Source: Streptococcus hyointestinalis
GTDB taxonomy: Bacteria > Bacillota > Bacilli > Lactobacillales > Streptococcaceae
Assembly (NCBI RefSeq): GCF_900459405.1
Contig: NZ_UHFN01000002.1
Span: forward strand, 1-64,000
Reading direction: 5' to 3'
Length of the DNA: 64,000 nt
Part shown: in pieces, positions 11,656-47,361 of the stretch
Layout: the number at the start of each line of letters is the position of its first letter
How positions within the stretch are numbered: position 1 is the stretch's first letter
Program-made: the position numbers and the translations under genes
Notes under the pieces: model-generated
What the model was told of the DNA's origin: nothing
Database searches by the model: none
What the model saw: only the letters and a program-made list of their open reading frames with translations

Positions 11656-11706
11656 TATTTTTCCTCTAAAAACTTTCTCTCTTATTCTTGCTTTAACTTT
11701 GATACC

Positions 11707-11748
11707 ATTATACCACGCACCACTTGCAATCTCCAAGCCAACTGGCAG
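11707..11748 (-). promoter_or_regulatory. class I promoter with CTGCCAG box
   Basis: Minus strand: CTGCCAG, TTGGAG, 18 bp, TATAAT. It lies about 30 bp beyond the terminator of CRISPR locus A and drives the 10.8-11.65 kb gene. Confidence 0.7.
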
Positions 11749-11788
11749 TCAGCAAAAACTTTTTTAATAACATAATGTGAAAAAAGAA

Positions 11789-11835: not shown

Positions 11836-11937
11836 GTTTCAGTACCATGCTATATTTGAAGGTTATCAAACCGACTACACCTCAAGAAGCTATTGAAATG
11901 AGTTTCAGTACCGTGCTAATCTTTATGGTTCTCAAAC
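11836..11937 (-). CRISPR. CRISPR locus A, two degenerate repeats, one spacer
   Basis: Two diverged 36-bp repeats (11836-11871 and 11902-11937) flank one 30-bp spacer. The array is read leftward from the leader at 11938. The spacer reads in one frame as TTPQEAIEM, which fits an origin in a coding region. Repeat decay suggests that the locus no longer acquires spacers. No cas gene is adjacent. Confidence 0.8.
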
Positions 11938-12045
11938 CTCATCAGCCGACACCATAAGCATGGTCAAGCACCCTTACCTTCTCTCCGTGGATTTCAGCAG
12001 AGCCACTTGAAGTTCTCGCCAAGCGACGGTCTCTGAATTGACCTT
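11938..12045 (-). ncRNA. structured CRISPR leader RNA, locus A
   Basis: The promoter is TTGCTA, 17 bp, TATACT (rightmost about 12080, -10 at 12052-12057). The transcript begins GGTC..GACC (hairpin 1), then TCGC..GCGA (hairpin 2), then a long hairpin closed by TCAAGT and GCTTGA, then an ACCATGC...ATGG anti-repeat-like piece before the first repeat. Copies B to F share this layout with paired base changes. Confidence 0.7.
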
Positions 12046-12131
12046 ACTTATAGTATAGCAAACTCTGTCCTGTTTAGCAATCGACATGGTTTATGAGTTG
12101 CCTTTTGGCTAAAAAATGGTATAATGAAAAT

Positions 12132-12250
12132 AGAAAAAGGGTCGGTTTGCAGACCAACCCATTGTAGAACCGTTTAGACGGTGGCTTGTTAATAAAACCT
12201 ATTTAAATAGCCGTACCAACTCGCCAAAGTATTGACGGCTATTTATTTTT
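12132..12250 (+). ncRNA. type I antitoxin RNA (locus A)
   Basis: The promoter is TTGCCT, 16 bp, TATAAT (12120-12125), divergent from the CRISPR leader promoter. The RNA starts with a GGGTCGGTTTGC..ACCAACCC hairpin, has a GAACCGTTTAGACGGT element and ends at the AGCCGT..ACGGCT hairpin with a T run. Its 3' end overlaps the 3' end of the toxin mRNA on the other strand, as in par/Fst and TxpA/RatA systems. Confidence 0.65.
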
Positions 12251-12346
12251 GTCATCGTTTTTGAAGATTTTATAACACAAACCAATCAAACTAATGGCAA
12301 ATTGTCCAAAAGCAAGAAGGATTTGCACCACTTCAAACGCTGTCAA
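12239..12346 (-). CDS. holin-like type I toxin, 35 aa
   Basis: The peptide starts MTAFEVVQILLAFGQFAISL and ends in a charged tail (FKNDDKNK). It is one membrane helix with the M(S/T)xFEVL..L..G.F..SL pattern of putative holin-like toxins (Hol_Tox, TxpA-like). The start codon is TTG with a GGAAGGAGGAG ribosome site. Promoter ATGGTATAAT lies at about 12446-12451 on the minus strand. The convergent antitoxin RNA overlaps its end. It should depolarise or damage the membrane if the antitoxin RNA is lost. Confidence 0.75.
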   Translation of the reverse strand: MTAFEVVQILLAFGQFAISLIGLCYKIFKNDDKNK

Positions 12347-12392
12347 AACTGCTCCTCCTTCCTGTTAAGTTTGATGAAATGCTCATAAGCAT
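12333..12392 (-). CDS. leader ORF overlapping toxin start, 19 aa
   Basis: The peptide MLMSISSNLTGRRSSFDSV has an AGTGAGGTG ribosome site and ends 14 bases inside the toxin gene. The toxin copy at 31.5 kb has a matching leader ORF beginning MPMCISS. Conservation of the start and position points to translational control of the toxin. Confidence 0.5.
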   Translation of the reverse strand: MLMSISSNLTGRRSSFDSV

Positions 12393-12470
12393 CACCTCAC
12401 TTTCAGAAAACAAGAGCCACCGTCTTTCACTTTTCTACGATAATTATTATACCATATTTAATATCCTGAA

Positions 12471-17691: not shown

Positions 17692-18963
17692 TTAAGCTTC
17701 GTCAATTTCATGCAATTCCCTATCTAGATAACCTAATTTAGTACGGAAAACACTGACTAACTCAGACGGAGCATTAAAGAGAATTTCCTTACCTTTATTG
17801 GCTGTACTTTCTTTTTGCTCTTTCTTTTCATTATAGTATTTGCGTCTTTCTTGAAGTTTTTTAAAGTCCTTTTTATTGATATAGAACTCATCCCCAAGGT
17901 CTAATACCTCGTTAGCAATCTGACCGAAACGATTTTTGCGATAAGCCCCAATCTTATGCCACATAGACCGACGTCTATTAGCGACCTTTTTGTAATGATT
18001 GGAGTAGTTCCATTTATGTCGCCCTTCTTTGATTGTACCATCTTCATTATAGTTGTCAGGGTTATTGATACGTCTTAGATGTTCTAGTTGCCTATCGTAT
18101 TCTGAAAGACGTTTAGACATTCCGTGATCGTTGTTGAGGTCATATTCTTTTACTAAGTCACCGTCTTTGTAAACCTTTAAATATGGTACATCAATACGAA
18201 TGTCAACTCGACCTGTTTCATGTAGACGTTTGTGTTGATACGGCGCTTCATCAAAGGTTAATACACACCAGTAATTCCAGCGTCCCCAACGGTCACGGAC
18301 ACGTTTAATCTTGTAGAACGCTAAACGGTGGCGTTCAAGTGCATAGGTAAAACGGATTTCGTCATCTGCCACAAATTCAAATGGGAAGAAAACCTTGTTA
18401 GGACGTTTACCAACTAACACCCCTTTTTCGCTGATGTTGTTATTCACCTTACGATATAGCATAGTTGAGAAGTTGTCATAAGCGGTAAAAGGTACAAAGT
18501 TTTTGGATTTTCCTTGCTTACGGCGTTTGAGATAGGCTTGTTTCACGGTGACAGCAATATCTTCAAACGTCGACCACTCAATCAAACCTTGCTTAGTATA
18601 GTTTTCGTACATGTAACTGGCTTGCCCAAGTTCTTTGTATTTAACAAACTTGGAGTTAGCAAGATTAAAACTGTTATTTAGCTCAATCCATTCCGTTTTA
18701 AGCTCTTTTTCCATCTCGCTAATTAGAGATTTGAGGGCTTTCTTTTCAGCTTTATCTTTTGTTTCATTATACTTTTCTTTCAGTTTAGCATAATGGCCTT
18801 GCTTTTCTCCTAGAGCTTTATACTCATCAGAGGACTGTCTCCTGTGTTCTTGGCGATTGTAATATTGCACAACTTTGTTCTTTAGGCGAAGTGCGATTTT
18901 AAAACGCTTCTCCAGATATTCCTCGTAACCCTTGGCGTCAAGCCTTAATTTTATAGCGTACAT
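17692..18963 (-). CDS. TnpB-like protein without full RuvC site and zinc ribbon, 423 aa
   Basis: The central part matches the TnpB subfamily marked by RRxxNPDNYNEDGTIKEGRHKW (about residues 297-318). RuvC-I is represented by RIDVPYLKVY with Asp258. At RuvC-II the family has (K)TEKLSYRAFQ; here it is YINKKDFKKLQE, so the catalytic Glu is replaced. The protein stops at LGYLDRELHEIDEA, just where other members continue into the zinc ribbon and RuvC-III Asp. It should bind RNA and DNA but not cut. This resembles TnpB-like nuclease-dead repressors. It lies in an operon with 19179-19505 and a 51-aa ORF under a class I promoter, not in an IS. A TTAGGAGACTC site sets the start. Confidence 0.75.
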   Translation of the reverse strand: MYAIKLRLDAKGYEEYLEKRFKIALRLKNKVVQYYNRQEHRRQSSDEYKALGEKQGHYAKLKEKYNETKDKAEKKALKSLISEMEKELKTEWIELNNSFNLANSKFVKYKELGQASYMYENYTKQGLIEWSTFEDIAVTVKQAYLKRRKQGKSKNFVPFTAYDNFSTMLYRKVNNNISEKGVLVGKRPNKVFFPFEFVADDEIRFTYALERHRLAFYKIKRVRDRWGRWNYWCVLTFDEAPYQHKRLHETGRVDIRIDVPYLKVYKDGDLVKEYDLNNDHGMSKRLSEYDRQLEHLRRINNPDNYNEDGTIKEGRHKWNYSNHYKKVANRRRSMWHKIGAYRKNRFGQIANEVLDLGDEFYINKKDFKKLQERRKYYNEKKEQKESTANKGKEILFNAPSELVSVFRTKLGYLDRELHEIDEA

Positions 18964-19505: not shown

Positions 19506-19587
19506 GATAGTCCTCCATTTCTGAGATTATCTAGCTTCGCTTTCTGTATAGTCTGTACTATCTGCGTGGTCTGTATTATTTGGTAAT

Positions 19588-19628
19588 ATTGTATCATGGT
19601 TCTTGTGTACCTCCAAACCATCTGGCAG
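19588..19628 (-). promoter_or_regulatory. class I promoter with CTGCCAG box
   Basis: Minus strand: CTGCCAG (19628-19622), TTGGAG, 17 bp, TACAAT. It follows the remnant CRISPR leader B in the same direction and should drive the operon with the TnpB-like gene. Downstream lie repeated ACAGAC.ATACAG motifs, shared with the 8.33 kb copy. Confidence 0.7.
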
Positions 19629-19709
19629 ATGTTAGCTAAATTTTTTTTCATTATTCAATCATTTCAATTTCTTTTCATTCATTTGATGGTGTGCTTTTTT
19701 CTGCGTTAA

Positions 19710-19850
19710 AAAAAGCTGTACAGTTTCAGTTCCAGTACACTATACTGTACATGGTCAAACACCCTCGCTGTCTTTCCGCAGATTTCAGCAGAGCCGCTTG
19801 ATGTTCTCGCTAAACGACTGGCTCTGAATTGCCCTAAAAATAGTATAACA
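19710..19850 (-). CRISPR. CRISPR locus B remnant (leader plus repeat end)
   Basis: The leader is recognisable (GGGC..GCC hairpin, TCGT..GCGA hairpin, long hairpin closed by TCAAGC and GTTTGA) and is followed directly by a repeat end, ACTGAAAC, at about 19712-19719. No spacer remains. The paired changes T-to-C and A-to-G in the long stem relative to locus D keep base pairing. The promoter is weakened (-35 lost). Confidence 0.65.
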
Positions 19851-21039: not shown

Positions 21040-22495
21040 GGTTTGGCGTCAACTACCACACCCTTCGTTAACACTTAGAGGACGTGGCTTGCTGTGTTCT
21101 AAAATCTAGTACCAACGTTTTTCAACTCCTAGATTCCAAACTCTATAAAGTTTGTGCGAACCAACTTTCTAAACAATAGCTAAGTCTATTGTTCCCGCAG
21201 GTTGACAACTACGGTTAGTAACTATGTTTACACAGTTACCATTTTTCATTTTCTATGATTTCAAACTGTGGTTTCTCAACACCACTCACGAACCATTTTC
21301 CTAGCTCATAGATATTCATTGCTGCGACCCGGTCATCATTGGATGTATAGCCACAGTTGTGGCAATGGTAACTATGATTGTTTCTATCACGGTTCTCCTT
21401 ACGGATAATACCACATTTTGAACAACGTTGACTGGTATATTGTGCAGATACAGTAATGACTTGAGATTCATTCTGTATCGCCTTATAAGCCAATTTTTGT
21501 TCCAAATCGTAAAAAGACCAGGAATGATGCTCGTAACGGTTTTCTTTCTTTCGTTTAGAAACCGTATCAAAGGTCACGTCGGCCAAATCTTCCAATACGA
21601 AAAGTGTATGTTTACCATACTGCTGAACGAGTGTCTTAGACAAACAATGATTAACATCATTCATCCAACGGGATTCTCGTTCTGCCAATTTTCGTAATCG
21701 TCGTTTTGCGGATTGGGTGCCTTTGGCTTGCAAACTAGCTCGTAATTGTTTGTAATGATTTCGTTTTTGTTTGATAAACGCACCGTTTACAAACTGGGTA
21801 CGACCTTTGTTATCATAAGTAGTTACGATTTGTCGTAAACCACGGTCAATACCAACAACGTTACGCACTGTTTCTAATTGGAATTCAGGAATTTCGGTTG
21901 TAACACTGATATGCATATAGTAGTGCTTACCAGATTTGACAATCTTTGCTGTACCGAATTGCCATTCGGATTGCAAATAGTGTTCCAAACCGTTGAAAAT
22001 CAACCGTCCTGCAACACGTCCATAAATCGTGTTAAGCGTAACGGAATGGTCGTCTTTAATGGTATAATCACGATTACGTACTAAATCCAGTTGTGGTCGA
22101 TTGAAAATGATTGGTTTCCAAAGAAACGTTAAGTCCTTTCGGATGTAGTTCCGAACTGATTTTCCGTGGTTGTCTTTTTTGTAGCCGTCCCAAACCGATT
22201 GTTTACGTAACTGGGTTTGCACGGTTTTATAACGAGCTACGGTAGTACGAATCGTTGATATAGACATTTGTGATTTCAATTGATGTCTTGAACGGATATC
22301 TTGATAGATTTCCTTTTGTATTGTCAGTTGATTCAATGGAAAATCGTTGTTGAAAATATACTCCGAAACTGTGTTACAACCGTTACGAAACGCCACCATT
22401 GTATCCATGAGTTTGGAATAATCATTATGATTATCCAAAACAATACGAGCTTTTAATGTTCGTGTTACTTCCATACGAAAACTCCTTTCTATCAA
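21040..22495 (-). mobile_element. tnpB unit with IS605-type right end only
   Basis: The right end (21040-21235, minus strand sense) carries GGTAGTTGACGCC, like the right end of the element at 33-34.6 kb (GGTAGTTGAC). No matching left end is found upstream of the gene; instead a class I promoter lies 75 bp before the start. The unit may therefore be immobile or domesticated. Confidence 0.55.
21236..22474 (-). CDS. tnpB: TnpB RNA-guided nuclease, 412 aa
   Basis: The ATG at 22474 follows GAAAGGAG and gives the same N-terminus as the copy at 33.2 kb (MEVTRTLKARIVLDNHN). RuvC-I Asp is in NVVGIDRGLRQIV, RuvC-II Glu in LFVLEDLADVTF, zinc ribbon CSKCG...CHNCG, and RuvC-III Asp in TSNDDRVAAMNIY. It looks catalytically complete. 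It is close to the 33.2 kb protein over its whole length. Confidence 0.9.
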   Translation of the reverse strand: MEVTRTLKARIVLDNHNDYSKLMDTMVAFRNGCNTVSEYIFNNDFPLNQLTIQKEIYQDIRSRHQLKSQMSISTIRTTVARYKTVQTQLRKQSVWDGYKKDNHGKSVRNYIRKDLTFLWKPIIFNRPQLDLVRNRDYTIKDDHSVTLNTIYGRVAGRLIFNGLEHYLQSEWQFGTAKIVKSGKHYYMHISVTTEIPEFQLETVRNVVGIDRGLRQIVTTYDNKGRTQFVNGAFIKQKRNHYKQLRASLQAKGTQSAKRRLRKLAERESRWMNDVNHCLSKTLVQQYGKHTLFVLEDLADVTFDTVSKRKKENRYEHHSWSFYDLEQKLAYKAIQNESQVITVSAQYTSQRCSKCGIIRKENRDRNNHSYHCHNCGYTSNDDRVAAMNIYELGKWFVSGVEKPQFEIIENEKW

Positions 22496-22549
22496 TATTT
22501 CACAAGTTCACCATACCATAAACTTCCTCACTTCTTTTTTCTTAACTCC

Positions 22550-22590
22550 ATTATATCATTGCCCTTTGTTATCTCCAAGCCGACTGGCAG
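22550..22590 (-). promoter_or_regulatory. class I promoter with CTGCCAG box, before tnpB
   Basis: Minus strand: CTGCCAG, TTGGAG, 17 bp, TATAAT (22555-22550). It places tnpB at 21236-22474 in the same regulon as element genes. Confidence 0.7.
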
Positions 22591-22627
22591 TACCATAGGT
22601 ATTGAATTGAAAATATTAAGAAAAACA

Positions 22628-22700
22628 AAAAGCCACAGTTTGAATCAACTGTGACTCTTCGGTTAAAGCATATAATGCTCCAATTAAGCATTGATACCTT
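22628..22700 (-). ncRNA. candidate small RNA unit between locus C and tnpB
   Basis: Minus strand: a TATAAT box near 22698-22703 is followed by about 70 nt ending in AGTCACAGTT...AACTGTGGCTTTTTG, a good terminator. There is no coding frame. It may be a small RNA, or a remnant of a duplicated promoter-terminator unit. Confidence 0.35.
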
Positions 22701-22817
22701 TATTATAGCTCATTTTCTATTGCTCGTATAGTCAATGGTCGGAGTAAAAAAGCAACATAGAGTTGCCACATTTTTTTAACTTCTCTTGCCCTCTTAAATT
22801 GATAGGCTCATGAAGGG

Positions 22818-22985
22818 GTTTCAGTACCATGTATTAAGGCTGGTGCTCAAAAGGATGACTTATTCATTTTGATAGCTAATTAAGCACCACCGCACACGGT
22901 CAAGCACCCTAGCTTTCTTTCCGCAGATTCGAGTAGAGCAACTTGAGGTTTTCGCTAGGCGATGGTCTCTGAATTGACCTTGTTT
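22818..22985 (-). CRISPR. CRISPR locus C remnant (leader, one decayed repeat)
   Basis: The leader (about 22865-22985) keeps promoter TTGCTA, 17 bp, TATACT and hairpins 1-3. One decayed repeat remains at 22818-22853 (ends CATGGTACTGAAAC). A GGCAAC..GTTGCTTTTTT terminator follows at about 22755-22778. The anti-repeat part of the leader is damaged. Confidence 0.65.
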
Positions 22986-23067
22986 ATAGTATAGCAGAAC
23001 TAACACCATTTAGCAATTCACAATGTTAATGAGTTGCCTTTTGGCTCAAAAATGGTATAATGAAAAT

Positions 23068-23178
23068 AGAAAAGGAGTTGAGTTCCAGCTCAACTCCGTG
23101 TAGAACCGTTCACGACGGTAGCTAAGTATAAGTTATGCTAATAACCGCTGTTCGGCTAAAGTAGGCGGTTATTTTTGT
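23068..23178 (+). ncRNA. orphan type I antitoxin RNA (locus C)
   Basis: Promoter TTGCCT, 16 bp, TATAAT (23056-23061), divergent from the locus C leader. The RNA has the same 5' hairpin sequence as the 31.7 kb copy (GAGTTGAGTTCCAGC and its complement), the GAACCGTTCACGACGGT element and an AACCGC..GCGGTT terminator. No toxin frame follows on the opposite strand. Confidence 0.6.
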
Positions 23179-31222: not shown

Positions 31223-31459
31223 AGAAGCCATTAGTTTAAAAGTGTTTGGTAGCTCTGGTTAGTAATGATGTTTTCTCTCAAGTAATCAGTTCACTGGCGT
31301 TTTTCTATCTTCCCCACCTTTTTCTATTTACCTTAGTTAGGGTTAAATGTAGAAAAACACCTCACTGGAAATAGTAAGGTGTTTTCTAATTGGGAGTATG
31401 ATATAATAGACTCTGTAGAAAAGTTAAGACGGTGGCTCTTGTTTTCTGAAAGTGAGGTG

Positions 31460-31507
31460 ATGCCTATGTGCATTTCATCAAAATCTGACGGAAAGGAGGA
31501 GACATAA
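31460..31507 (+). CDS. leader ORF abutting the type I toxin, 15 aa
   Basis: MPMCISSKSDGKEET, with an AGTGAGGTG ribosome site; its TAA touches the toxin TTG. It corresponds to the leader ORF at 12.39 kb. The toxin's GAAAGGAGGAG ribosome site lies inside it. Confidence 0.5.
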   Translation: MPMCISSKSDGKEET

Positions 31508-31609
31508 TTGTCAACGTTTGAGGTATTGACGCTTTTGTTTGTGGCAGGCAATTTTGTGCTTTCACTCGTTAAGCTCTTACTTGAACTTATCAAATTGACA
31601 AAAAAATAA
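31508..31609 (+). CDS. holin-like type I toxin, 33 aa
   Basis: The peptide starts MSTFEVLTLLFVAGNFVLSL and ends in KLTKK. One membrane helix; same family as 12239-12346. Promoter TATAAT at 31402-31407 gives a leader of about 95 nt. The 3' end overlaps the antitoxin RNA on the minus strand. An intrinsic hairpin at 31352-31386 insulates the unit. Confidence 0.8.
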   Translation: MSTFEVLTLLFVAGNFVLSLVKLLLELIKLTKK

Positions 31610-31720
31610 CCGTCTTACTTTGACACGAGGACGATTATTTTTGATTAAAAATATGAAAACTCTGAGTCACCGTCTTAAACGGTTCTACATGGAGTTGAGT
31701 TCCAGCTCAACTCTTTTTCT
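31600..31720 (-). ncRNA. type I antitoxin RNA (locus D)
   Basis: Promoter on the minus strand with TATAAT at 31732-31727, divergent from the CRISPR D leader promoter. The RNA starts with AGAGTTGAGCTGGAACTCAA, carries GAACCGTTTAAGACGGTGA and ends at the shared bidirectional terminator overlapping the toxin 3' end. Confidence 0.65.
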
Positions 31721-31798
31721 ATCTTCATTATACCATTTTTAAACCAAAAGGCAACTCATTACCCACGTGAATTGCTAAATGGAGTTTGTTCTGCTATA

Positions 31799-31916
31799 CT
31801 ATAAACAAGGTCAATTCAGAGACCATCGCTTAGCGAGAACTTCAAGTGGCTCTGCCAGAATCTGCGGAAAGACGGCAAGGGTACTTGACCATGCACAGAT
31901 GGTATCAGCTAATGAG
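31799..31916 (+). ncRNA. structured CRISPR leader RNA, locus D
   Basis: Promoter TTGCTA, 17 bp, TATACT (31792-31797). Hairpin 1 GGTC/GACC, hairpin 2 TCGC/GCGA, hairpin 3 closed by TCAAGT/ACTTGA with an inner CTCTGCC/GGCAAGGG stem holding one bulged A. The 3' end ACCATGCACAGATGGT is complementary to parts of the repeat (GCATGGT and ACCAT). The leader runs straight into repeat 1 after TAATGAG. Confidence 0.75.
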
Positions 31917-32326
31917 GTTTGAGAACCATTCAAACTAGCATGGTACTGAAACAAAGTTGGGTGTAGATTTTCTCTACTTTTTGTTTGAGAACCATTCAAA
32001 CTAGCATGGTACTGAAACAATGGCGCATATCAAGGTTATCAGAGGTGAGTTTGAGAACCATTCAACTTAGCATGGTACTGAAACGATTATGCTGATGATA
32101 ACACCATTTCAAAAGTTTGAGAACCATTCAACTTAGCATGGTACTGAAACTATCGTAACTCTTGAAAAAAAGTATTTAGTGTTTGAGAACCATTCAACTT
32201 AGCATGGTACTGAAACGAAATAGGAAAGTAAACGAGACGATTATTGTGTTTGAGAACCATTCAACTTAGCATGGTACTGAAACATCAAATCGCTGAAAAA
32301 TTGACAACTTGGCGTTTGAGAACCAT
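31917..32326 (+). CRISPR. CRISPR array D, six repeats plus truncated terminal repeat
   Basis: 36-bp repeats start at 31917, 31983, 32049, 32115, 32181 and 32248; spacers are 30-31 bp. Each repeat begins GTTTGAGAACCAT and ends GCATGGTACTGAAAC, and the ends are near-inverted. Repeats 1-2 have AAACTAGC in the centre, repeats 3-6 AACTTAGC. A terminal repeat keeps only its first 13 bases (32314-32326). Most spacers read as open frames. No cas gene is present in the window. Confidence 0.92.
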
Positions 32327-32340
32327 ATAAGTATTAAAGC

Positions 32341-32366
32341 AACAACCATGAGGGTTGTTTTTTTTA
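32341..32366 (+). terminator. trailer terminator of CRISPR array D
   Basis: AACAACC..GGGTTGTT and nine T, immediately after the truncated terminal repeat. Confidence 0.8.
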
Positions 32367-32410
32367 TACCTATACTCACACACATTTTGTTAGCAAAAAA
32401 TTGCTGTAGA

Positions 32411-32451
32411 CTGCCAGTTGGTTTGGTGGTCTAGGGTTTCAATGATATAAT
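32411..32451 (+). promoter_or_regulatory. class I promoter with CTGCCAG box
   Basis: CTGCCAGTTGGTTTGGTG, then 17 bp, then TATAAT (32446-32451). It drives the membrane protein at 32499 and lies 45 bp beyond the array D terminator. Confidence 0.7.
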
Positions 32452-32498
32452 AGGTATAAGAAATTACTTAGCATAGATTATAGAAAGAGGATTAGGTT

Positions 32499-33064: not shown

Positions 33065-34590
33065 CCGTCGAGACCCCTTACTTTAGTGAGGGGAGGAAAC
33101 GGTTGTCCTCCTTTTTTTGATATTGTAACAACTTTTCTATTAAATTCATGACTATAATATGGTATAATTAAGTCATGAAAATAATTCAATAGAAAGGAGT
33201 TGGATATGGATTTGAATCGAGTGATTAAAGCACGTATTGTGTTTGATAATCAGAACGATATTATGAAAATGGTCGAATCGCAAGAAGCGTATCGACAAGG
33301 TTGTAACTTTGTTTCAGACTACATTTTCAATCACGGTTTTCAGTTAAATGCTACAGCATTAAACAAATTTGTTTACAGTGATTTACGTGAACAATTTGGA
33401 CTTAAATCACAAATGGCTCAATCCTGTATACGAACCGTTGTGGCACGGTACAAAACTGTACAAACTCAATTGCGTAAACAACGTGTCTGGGACGGTTACA
33501 AGAAAGATAATCATGGGAATGAAGTTAGAAACTACATTAACAAAGATTTAGACTTTCTTTGGAAACCAATTGCTTTCAGTCGTCCGCAACTAGATTTAGT
33601 ACGCAATCGTGATTATTCCTATACCAAAAACGGTAAGGTATCTTTGAACACCATTCATGGACGTGTGATTGTTAAACCGATTTACAACGGTTTTGAACAA
33701 TATTTTGACGGTTCATGGACACTAGGTACTGCCAAGATTCTTAAATCAGGTAAACACTGGTTTATGCATATCGCAGTAACCAAGGAATTAAACGACCAAG
33801 AACCTGAAATCAGAAACGTTGTTGGTATTGACCGTGGTTTAAGACAATTGGTGACCACTTATGACAATAAGGGTAAAACTACGTTTTACTCTGGTAAGCA
33901 AATTGGTCACAAACGCCGTAATTATGCACGGTTACGTAAAGAGTTGCAATCTAAAGGTACAAAGTCCGCTAAACGAAGACTTAACGCTATTAATCAACGA
34001 GAATCCCGTTGGATGAACGATGTTAATCATCGTATTTCTAAGACACTCGTTGACACCTATGGTTCAGGAACTTTGTTTATGCTAGAGGATTTAACTAATG
34101 TCACCTTTGATACTGTTTCCAAGCGTAAGAAAGAAAACCGTTATGAACATCATTCCTGGGCTTTTTACGACTTGGAACAAAAATTGGCTTATAAAGCTAT
34201 AGCGAACGGTTCCATTGTTGTTAAATCGGATGCACATTACACAAGTCAACGTTGTCCAAAATGTGGTCACATTGATAAAGACAATCGTAATAGAACAAAT
34301 CATGAATTTTGTTGTAAACGGTGTTCTTTTAGAACCAATGATGACCGTGTGGCAAGTATGAACATTCAGTTCTTAGGAACTTTGTATAATAGTGGCGTTG
34401 AGAAACCACGTTTTGAAAAACATGAAATAAATCAGTGAGCCTCACATGGTTTACTGTTGGGTAGCTGAAACAATAGTTTCTTGTCAACCTGCCCCGATGT
34501 GGTAACGTTGTGTCTAGGAGTTGGTAAAACGTTTGTACTAGATTAGTTACTACAAGCCCGTCACTTTAGTGACGGGTAGTTGACTCCAAT
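33063..34590 (+). mobile_element. IS605-type tnpB element
   Basis: The left end forms AACCGTCGAGACCCCTTACT with a CCCC..GGGG hairpin closing on AAACGGTT. The right end has CCCGTCACTTTAGTGACGGG then TAGTTGAC. Only tnpB is present. It interrupts or truncates a paralogue of the 32499 gene. Candidate guide RNA region 34439-34590. Confidence 0.7.
33206..34438 (+). CDS. tnpB: TnpB RNA-guided nuclease, 410 aa
   Basis: The ATG at 33206 follows GAAAGGAG. RuvC-I Asp in NVVGIDRGLRQLV, RuvC-II Glu in LFMLEDLTNVTF, zinc ribbon CPKCG...CKRCS, RuvC-III Asp in TNDDRVASMN. Catalytically complete. It lies 840 bp downstream of array D. Confidence 0.9.
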   Translation: MDLNRVIKARIVFDNQNDIMKMVESQEAYRQGCNFVSDYIFNHGFQLNATALNKFVYSDLREQFGLKSQMAQSCIRTVVARYKTVQTQLRKQRVWDGYKKDNHGNEVRNYINKDLDFLWKPIAFSRPQLDLVRNRDYSYTKNGKVSLNTIHGRVIVKPIYNGFEQYFDGSWTLGTAKILKSGKHWFMHIAVTKELNDQEPEIRNVVGIDRGLRQLVTTYDNKGKTTFYSGKQIGHKRRNYARLRKELQSKGTKSAKRRLNAINQRESRWMNDVNHRISKTLVDTYGSGTLFMLEDLTNVTFDTVSKRKKENRYEHHSWAFYDLEQKLAYKAIANGSIVVKSDAHYTSQRCPKCGHIDKDNRNRTNHEFCCKRCSFRTNDDRVASMNIQFLGTLYNSGVEKPRFEKHEINQ

Positions 34591-43596: not shown

Positions 43597-44006
43597 TTGG
43601 TTCTCTAACTAATTTTAGTTAGAAGAAAGATTATTGACAGGTTTCAGTACCATGCTAGTTTGAATGGTTCTCAAACAAGAAAAAGGTGTTAGCCCCGTGT
43701 GGTTTAGTTTCAGTACCATGCTAGTTTGAATGGTTCTCAAACGTGGTGCGCTTCATCAATCAAAATGATTTCGTTTCAGTACCATGCTAGTTTGAAAGGT
43801 TCTCAAACAGCGTTTGATTATTGTTGAGAAATTAGATGGTTTCAGTACCATGCTAGTTTGAATGGTTCTCAAACAAAGCAAGTTAAAATACCGTTTTCGC
43901 CAATGTTTCAGTACCATGCTAGTTTGAATGGTTCTCAAACCCCTAGCCAGATTAGACTATATCTTACTTTGTTTCAGTACCATGCTAGTTTGAATGGTTC
44001 TCAAAC
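43597..44006 (-). CRISPR. CRISPR array E, six repeats plus truncated terminal repeat
   Basis: Repeats at 43641, 43707, 43773, 43839, 43905 and 43971 (36 bp each), all five internal spacers exactly 30 bp. Transcribed leftward from the leader. The repeat at 43773 has one change (GAAAGG). A terminal GTTAGAGAACCA remains at about 43598-43609. The spacer at 43743-43772, read leftward, encodes EIILIDEAHH, a DEAH-box Walker B motif. Confidence 0.93.
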
Positions 44007-44115
44007 CTCATTAGCTGATACCATCCGTGCATGGTCAAGTACCCTTGCCGTCTTTCCGCAGATTCTTGCAGAGCCACTTGATGTTCTCGCTAAGCGATGG
44101 TCTCTGAATTGACCT
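44007..44115 (-). ncRNA. structured CRISPR leader RNA, locus E
   Basis: Promoter TTGCTA, 17 bp, TATACT on the minus strand (-10 at about 44122-44127). Hairpins as in locus D; the inner stem reads CTCTGCA. The 3' end has ACCATGCACGGATGGT. No type I TA lies on the far side. Confidence 0.75.
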
Positions 44116-46802: not shown

Positions 46803-46919
46803 AACATTAAGGTCAATTCAGAGACCATCGTTTAAGCGAAAACTTCAAGTGGCTCTGCTGAAATCTAAGGAAAGAAAGTAAGGGTGCTTGACCATGCTCA
46901 GATGGTATCAGCTAATGAG
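46803..46919 (+). ncRNA. structured CRISPR leader RNA, locus F
   Basis: Promoter TTGCAA, 17 bp, TATACT (about 46795-46800). Inner stem CTCTGCT/AGTAAGGG shows C-to-T and G-to-A changes that keep pairing relative to locus D. The outer stem TCAAGT/GCTTGA keeps a G-T pair. The 3' end has ACCATGCTCAGATGGT. Confidence 0.75.
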
Positions 46920-47064
46920 GTTTGAGAACCATTCAAACTAGCATGGTACTGAAACACTATGCTATCAATATAATATTTTGAAAAAGTTTGAGAACCATTC
47001 AAACTAGCATGGTACTGAAACAAGTGTAAGTCCTTTTTCGTAGTAAGCAAAGTTTGAGAACCAT
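46920..47064 (+). CRISPR. CRISPR array F, two repeats plus truncated terminal repeat
   Basis: Repeats at 46920-46955 and 46986-47021, two 30-bp spacers, terminal GTTTGAGAACCAT at 47052-47064. Confidence 0.9.
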
Positions 47065-47102: not shown

Positions 47103-47151
47103 TGCTCATTTTTCACGCTCAATAAGCTCTTCAAAAAAAGTTGAAGCTCAT

Positions 47152-47192
47152 CTGCCAGTTGGCTTGCCTATTTCTACAAACTGCGTTATACT
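47152..47192 (+). promoter_or_regulatory. class I promoter with CTGCCAG box (small RNA 1)
   Basis: CTGCCAGTTGGCTTGCCT, 17 bp, TATACT. About 50 bp beyond the array F terminator. Confidence 0.7.
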
Positions 47193-47198
47193 ATAGTT

Positions 47199-47361
47199 GT
47201 TCCTAGCTAAGGAACGTTTGCATATATTGTTGTTTTCTATCACATAATTTAAACTTTCTTATTAAATGTGGTATAGAGTTTTGATACTCTTTCTCTAAAA
47301 AAGAGTATGATTGTTGCATGGGACGCTCTCGATACTTTCCTCATCGAAAGCGTCTTTTTTG
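47199..47361 (+). ncRNA. tandem small RNA unit 1, about 163 nt
   Basis: Starts with hairpin GTTCCTAGCTAAGGAAC and ends at GACGCT...AGCGTC with six T. An 18-codon frame runs through the terminator without a ribosome site and is probably not used. Paralogue of unit 2. Confidence 0.55.

Follow-up and report, generated by a model that had tools for sequence, protein, structure and literature searches.

In the guide RNAs of TnpB and Cas12 proteins a structured part is followed by an anti-repeat, and the scaffold of TnpB omega RNA lies 5′ of the guide. Type V-F clustered regularly interspaced short palindromic repeat (CRISPR) systems combine an anti-repeat with a scaffold resembling a trans-activating CRISPR RNA (tracrRNA); Cas9 tracrRNAs have anti-repeat and structured part in the reverse order, and TldR guides are single. 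Subtype V-M (Cas12m) is plasmid-borne, has an inactivated RuvC domain and silences by binding (available sections of PMC11656645 and PMC11013384; PMC12669027, section 9). The 2025 classification infers about 50 TnpB-to-CRISPR events, with tracrRNAs evolving many times and RuvC inactivation arising repeatedly, in V-C, in V-M and, by prediction, in V-O and V-P (PMC12669027, section 9). Further inactivated Cas12 systems are linked to transposases or other modules (available part of PMC10910872), and plasmid-borne V-M and type IV-A use host adaptation (available part of PMC11656645). Here we analyze a window of 64,000 nucleotides (nt), the first 64 kb of a 213-kb contig (C2) in the 2.55-Mb genome (G000) of Streptococcus hyointestinalis, with a focus on the CRISPR leader at 31808..31916 on the forward strand.

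A first-pass annotation had proposed that this leader is a covarying structured RNA ending in an anti-repeat, possibly a built-in tracrRNA, and named no effector. Our analysis makes it probable that this leader acts as the scaffold RNA in a type V-like, binding-only CRISPR system carried on a plasmid, which would use a nuclease-dead TnpB as effector and the type II-A machinery of the host for adaptation. Conjugation-type genes and insertion sequences are present on C2, according to our own reading of its open reading frames (ORFs).

A structured leader RNA and its copies

The leader and the elements around it are as follows.

31772..31800, + strand: promoter-like site with an extended −10 element (TTGCTA-17-TATACT), predicted for the scaffold-array transcript from a promoter scan and a conserved upstream motif
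31808..31916, +: leader (copy d, starting at 31808), a putative scaffold (tracr-like) RNA
31809..31824, +: hairpin 1 (GGTC/GACC)
31815..31819 with 31946..31950, +: predicted pseudoknot between the hairpin 1 loop UUCAG and the repeat end CUGAA
31826..31836, +: hairpin 2 (UCGC/GCGA)
31842..31888, +: hairpin 3, with two-sided changes at two of its pairs
31889..31894, +: anti-repeat 1, CCATGC, complementary to GCATGG at 31938..31943
31899..31903, +: anti-repeat 2, ATGGT, complementary to ACCAT at 31925..31929
31914..31916, +: GAG at the leader end, giving a GAG/GTTT junction as in type II-A loci
31917..32326, +: CRISPR array d, six repeats of 36 nt and six spacers of 30-31 nt, with a truncated repeat after them
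32341..32359, +: intrinsic terminator-like site after array d (terminator scan, one found against 0.3 expected)

The predicted RNA start lies near 31807, because the promoter-like site ends at 31800. The promoter scan alone was not significant (four sites found against 2.5 expected); an extended −10 element, TGCTAYACT, stands just 5′ of 10 of the 11 leader copies on C2 (all except copy b), with TTGC about 17 nt further upstream in most.

Six of the 11 copies lie inside the window, five of them in addition to copy d.

11836..12044, − strand: copy a, starting at 12044; scaffold with two diverged repeats
19723..19835, −: copy b, starting at 19835; decayed scaffold lacking a full repeat, with a T run after it, upstream of the candidate effector gene
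22788..22980, −: copy c, starting at 22980; scaffold fused to one guide, a natural single-guide form by its sequence
43641..44115, −: copy e, starting at 44115; scaffold with six repeats
46810..47064, +: copy f, starting at 46810; scaffold with two repeats and a truncated one

Arrays of 36-nt repeats and spacers of about 30 nt follow copies a, d, e, f, h, i and j, and most of these arrays close with a truncated repeat and terminator-like stretch. Copies c and k have a guide fused on and no intact first repeat while retaining the scaffold; judged by this layout, both are natural single-guide RNAs. Copy g is degenerate, and a leaderless array stands at C2:140458.

Comparison of the 11 sequences revealed that the three hairpins and a loop capable of forming the pseudoknot are kept among the copies, and that 10 of the 11 retain the 3′ anti-repeat. 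We scored a structure of 36 pairs comprising the hairpins, both anti-repeat helices and the pseudoknot. Standard pairs filled 97.3% of 369 cells, against 33-40% when the partners were slid. Two-sided changes occurred at 4 of the 36 pairs, a count equalled by 21 of 500 shuffles, and the covariation score of 0.122 was equalled by 3 of 500. The covariation of the C2 copies is thus real but modest, and we treat it as moderate evidence because many pairs never vary.

Most of what the first-pass annotation had described in copies A to F was borne out: these copies are genuine, hairpin 3 shows paired differences between d and f in its inner stem, and the quoted differences in the closing stem among d, f and b are present. 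Paired change in the GGTC/GACC stem of copy b was upheld for one two-sided change, while b also has a broken pair elsewhere in this stem. The proposed 3′ anti-repeat pairing was recovered at both helices, and the order of a structured 5′ part and an anti-repeat directly before the array is visible in the sequence, placed for co-transcription.

Stronger structural evidence comes from leaders outside the window, on other replicons that carry the candidate effector gene described below. The window leader gave no blastn match to the leader-bearing stretches of three of these (in genomes G083, G273 and G019), and their leaders share its fold and the order of its parts. The strands that would pair in the pseudoknot are UUUGG/CCAAA in G273, UUUAG/CUAAA in S. 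salivarius and UUUGU/ACAAA in G019, giving two-sided changes at three of the five pseudoknot pairs across four leader families. When the first 35 nt were shuffled, a hairpin loop with five complementary bases arose in 21 (G000), 31 (G273), 106 (S. salivarius) and 43 (G019) of 4000 trials. A covariance model built from the 11 copies matched the G083 leader at E 0.0032; its match to the G273 leader, at E 0.11, was no better than chance in the same search. The leader therefore appears to be a structured scaffold RNA whose plan is conserved with paired changes in the pseudoknot, and the RNA plan and the covariation together support well the idea of a structured, tracrRNA-like leader put forward in the first-pass annotation.

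Database searches with the leader were largely silent. Rfam returned nothing at the gathering threshold and, below it, one weak CRISPR-repeat match that falls on the repeat; leader DNA had no match among plasmids and phages; and leader plus repeat, searched against 147 relatives, matched only G000 and, weakly and apparently by chance, a site inside a gene (E 8e-4).

Several features accompany the scaffold copies. The T-run end of copy b (window 19700-19835) lies about 0.75 kb ahead of the effector gene and could act as an autoregulatory leader. A motif, CTGCCAG-TYGG-TTGG followed by a TATAAT-like element, occurs downstream of copies a, b, c, d and f (window 11660-11780, 19580-19650, 22540-22630, 32405-32470 and 47140-47200) and also of i, and has the appearance of a common plasmid promoter or operator. 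Type I toxin-antitoxin RNAs resembling rli28/RatA lie near scaffold copies at window 12122-12461, 23058-23142 and 31392-31730. Elsewhere on the contig, a repeat-rich, surface-protein-like ORF of 4273 amino acids (aa) spans C2:69061-81882.

A nuclease-dead TnpB-like protein linked to the arrays

Three TnpB-related genes of the window bear on the choice of effector.

17692..18963, − strand: candidate effector, a nuclease-dead TnpB/Cas12-like protein of 423 aa
33200..34438, +: intact TnpB flanked by transposon-like ends of its own, judged not to be the effector
21236..22495, −: second intact TnpB of the same family, likewise judged not to be the effector

The likely effector is the 423-aa protein rather than the intact TnpBs beside the arrays. 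Alignment shows that all RuvC catalytic residues are lost in each of the 53 near-full-length family members examined; an intact RuvC triad, as in Cas12f, occurs in none (0/53), and the inactivated RuvC is a V-M trait. In a fold comparison, the predicted structure was closest to TnpB among the matches listed, with Cas12m also among them at a lower Z score; as a single effector with a predicted RuvC/TnpB-type fold, the protein agrees with type V. The best PADLOC match to Cas12f had an E value of 0.039, short of a Cas12f assignment, and the protein had no Pfam family and no Cas12f-type match in NCBIfam. Among 5.8 billion proteins we found 59 close homologues besides the protein itself (at least 38% identity), followed by more distant TnpB-like proteins. 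No relative was found in viral contigs, and phage records held only distant partial ones.

The gene is present in 4 of 284 genomes of the genus, G000 included, and in five Streptococcus plasmids, aligned over at least 98% of its length. As two of these plasmid records are the same as G273:C2 and G083:C2, seven distinct replicons carry it. All seven have arrays of 36-nt repeats and 30-nt spacers (three replicons were searched over 48-49 kb only), and in four of them (G083, G019, NZ_CP018188 and NZ_MN480762) the array unit directly follows the gene, in the order gene, promoter-like site, structured RNA, array and terminator-like stretch, as judged by eye.

One spacer, with 1-3 point differences, is common to three S. 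salivarius plasmids (G083:C2:10457, NZ_CP018188 at about 106861, and NZ_MN480762:20741), where it adjoins the effector gene and has the look of a retained, fixed guide.

Targets, a putative 5′ motif and probable borrowed adaptation

To describe the targets, we compared arrays d and e (six spacers each) with the 284 genomes, scoring only two candidates per genome; arrays h-j (eight spacers) with eight genomes; and k1 (C2:123904-123933), a guide of the fused single-guide copy k, with the 284 genomes. Guides a1, a2, b, f1, f2, g1, g2, k2, m1 and m2 were compared only with DNA gathered in this analysis. Target genes other than cas1 were named by reading ORFs. Spacer d2 matches 30/30 in genome G192, in an apparent prophage helicase-loader gene beside csn2, and d4 matches 30/30 in a gene of an apparent conjugative element of the same genome and, at 26/30, in two further genomes. 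A phage-like region of G192 holds a 29/30 match of spacer j3 and, in addition, a 30/30 match of a chromosomal type II-A spacer. Guide k1 matches cas1 of G192 at 29/30 and the host cas1 at 28/30 (C7:702843-702872); at up to three mismatches these were its only sites besides itself in the 284 genomes, and the reversed control gave none. Spacer e4 has a weak match (24/30) to phage helicases.

The 5′ flanks of these protospacers read CCA (d2), CCA (d4), GCC (j3), CCT (k1 in G192) and CCA (e4). CC stands at −3,−2 in four of the five, one of which is weak, and this small sample points tentatively to a 5′ protospacer-adjacent motif (PAM); a Cas9-type 3′ NGG occurs at none (0/5).

The remaining comparisons were weak or empty. 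Other matches of arrays d and e in the 284 genomes were to repeats, one chromosomal array and genes, d5 (22/31) being left uncounted, and three further matches of arrays h-j in the eight genomes fall outside spacers. Against the plasmid itself, at 23/30 or better outside the spacer's own array, only a2 matched, at 24/30 with another array end. Among phages, array d matched one satellite phage in an array-like stretch (E 8e-4) and three phages in a repeat-like stretch (E 0.009), the rest being weak; searches of plasmids with array e and of phages with array j gave weak matches only, the G273 array had none in phages, and three spacer patterns had none in IMG/VR. As a separate observation, mini-arrays or single repeats related to GTTTTAGAGCCATTCAAAATAGCATGGTAGTAAAT occur in satellite phage Javan415 (L087:1220-1480), beside an integrase gene, and in G148 (L116:1490-1540), where GTTTGAG precedes the repeat and no scaffold is obvious; satellite phage Javan624 (L088:4700-5080) has array-like repeats with several hairpin-like spacers.

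The GAG/GTTT junction is present in 15 of 16 plasmid leaders and, with the 36-nt repeat and the spacer of about 30 nt, has the form of a type II-A integration substrate. Type II-A leaders of the two main groups end in GAG before GTTT (available part of PMC5382924), and since the end of this leader is that integration motif, the leader probably has two roles, as a scaffold in its RNA form and as an integration site in the DNA. The plasmid DNA examined yielded no cas1. The chromosome of G000 holds a type II-A locus with cas9, cas1 and csn2 (by reading) and 80 spacers, and in the other three genomes with the dead gene cas1 also lies off the plasmid, on another contig (4/4); near those cas1 genes are II-A-like repeat arrays with two leader types. 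Chromosomal spacers gave three matches to the gathered DNA, two of them with a 3′ NGG. Selection of NGG-flanked spacers by type II-A in reverse orientation would therefore be expected to leave 5′ CCN on plasmid protospacers. Arrays of S. ruminicola and S. equinus have leader-distal spacers in common and differ mainly near the leader, one internal spacer also being present in only one of the two, as polar acquisition with some loss would give.

We infer transcription, RNA binding, DNA binding, silencing and borrowed adaptation as follows. Each scaffold-array unit would be transcribed as one RNA, whose scaffold would fold into three hairpins and a pseudoknot with the anti-repeat paired to the repeat; through this pairing the effector would be loaded with guides. 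Paired in cis with the first repeat, the scaffold would give an omega-RNA-like or single-guide form, and in trans it could serve other spacers. The effector would bind matching DNA beside a 5′ CC motif and block transcription without cutting. New spacers would most likely be inserted by the host type II-A Cas1-Cas2-Csn2-Cas9, in an orientation turning 3′ NGG into 5′ CCN. A more specific version, which we hold only tentatively and regard as somewhat doubtful, is that a non-cutting plasmid CRISPR parasitises host II-A adaptation, with the leader as scaffold and integration site at once, reversed NGG spacers as 5′-CCN targets and a hard-wired cas1 guide in copy k, with which the plasmid could hold down the adaptation genes of its hosts or of competing hosts.

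Competing explanations and relation to described systems

The closest competitor is a TldR-type RNA-guided transcription factor aimed at plasmid or host genes, with the arrays incidental. A dead TnpB, the single-guide copies c and k, the cas1 match of k1 and the drifting spacer shared by the S. salivarius plasmids would all suit it, but it is unlikely given the many distinct 30-nt spacers, the targets in a prophage, a phage-like gene and a conjugative element, the leader-proximal differences between related plasmids, and guide c, which at up to three mismatches matches nothing in its own genome except itself. An ordinary active V-F-like system run by the intact TnpBs (33200-34438, 21236-22495 or the 369-aa family, which has six copies on C2 at 83% identity or more) is very unlikely. 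The first two, 64% identical, lie near arrays d and c and match Cas12f models (PADLOC, E about 1e-39) and solved Cas12f structures, which had made 33200-34438 a candidate Cas12f effector; that candidate was dropped on finding transposon-like ends in its flanks. Both look like insertion-sequence TnpBs that happen to be nearby. They seem to carry their own guide RNA, because the 3′ flank has a conserved stretch ending GTAGTTGA, found also at C2:181003, C4:9811 and five places in Faecalicatena absiana, and of the four copies of the 412-aa type in this genome, for which ends were examined, three have clear end hairpins. Moreover, the six other replicons with arrays and the dead gene hold no match to these intact TnpBs.

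That the arrays are orphans feeding guides to the chromosomal Cas9 is more improbable still. The 36+30 layout, the GAG/GTTT junction and the host II-A locus with its 80 spacers are as it would predict, and the leader ends pair equally well with the host II-A repeat and their own; yet the plasmid repeats are clearly unlike the chromosomal ones, and the absence of 3′ NGG at all five protospacers, together with a structured part 5′ of the anti-repeat, opposite to Cas9 tracrRNA, led us to reject Cas9 as the user of the arrays on PAM side and RNA order. We give least credence to a leader that is only a DNA element for spacer integration, its hairpins being by-products of repeats: the GAG/GTTT junction is a known integration motif, but the fold is conserved in four divergent families with pseudoknot covariation, and the scaffold persists in copies c and k, both without an intact first repeat.

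Several points weigh against the binding-only, plasmid-borne system that we favor. The evidence comes from sequence and a predicted fold. The dead gene lies about 13 kb from array d, and other C2 arrays are up to about 120 kb away. Leader-repeat duplex energies are not specific to a copy's own repeat within the plasmid, and the equally good pairing of its leader ends with the host II-A repeat counts here as well. The PAM derives from five protospacers, among which e4 is weak and j3 is shifted by one base, and the host cas1 match of k1 has two mismatches and a CGC flank; counting it lowers the tally to 3/5. GAG is missing from the G083 leader, the sole exception, and the 4/4 count for cas1 was taken in dead-gene genomes only. 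Over the 284 genomes the RNA model matched only G000, under strict filters that missed the G083, G273 and G019 leaders.

If the favored reading is true, oral and rumen streptococci would harbor a natural CRISPR-interference immune system, in which a tracr-like RNA still joined to its array would represent an intermediate between the omega RNA of transposons and a split tracrRNA/crRNA. Two questions would become testable, the origin of tracrRNAs from omega RNAs and spacer acquisition by mobile elements without cas1. A putative natural DNA binder of 423 aa with a defined guide scaffold would be a candidate compact tool.

In the portions of the literature available to us we found no description of this Streptococcus clade, which may be listed in the data of Altae-Tran (PNAS 2023) or Tordoff (2025), nor of a binding-only type V-like effector paired with type II-A adaptation. 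Subtype V-M resembles the present system in having a RuvC-inactivated type V effector on plasmids that silences by binding, which is inferred here; however, the listed Cas12m chains have 500-600 residues, and the protein here is smaller, with 423 aa, has lost the C-terminal part, is structurally closest to TnpB among the matches listed and is accompanied by a tracr-like scaffold in the leader. Type V-F (Cas12f1; AsCas12f and OsCas12f) likewise combines a small TnpB-related effector with a tracrRNA-like anti-repeat scaffold, whereas the effector here is catalytically dead and reaches Cas12f models only at E 0.039. TldR is also a nuclease-dead TnpB exapted as an RNA-guided binder, and the term "CRISPR array" does not occur in the available text of the TldR paper (PMC13418256); here, single-guide copies c and k exist, but arrays of acquired-looking spacers dominate. 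Plasmid type IV-A shares binding-only CRISPR and the possible use of host adaptation machinery (available part of PMC11656645), with a class 1 effector and host I-E there and a single protein and host II-A here. TnpB omega RNA and LaTranC, whose structures are among the fold matches, share the scaffold 5′ of the guide; in this system, by contrast, the cleavage residues are absent and a multi-spacer array follows the scaffold.
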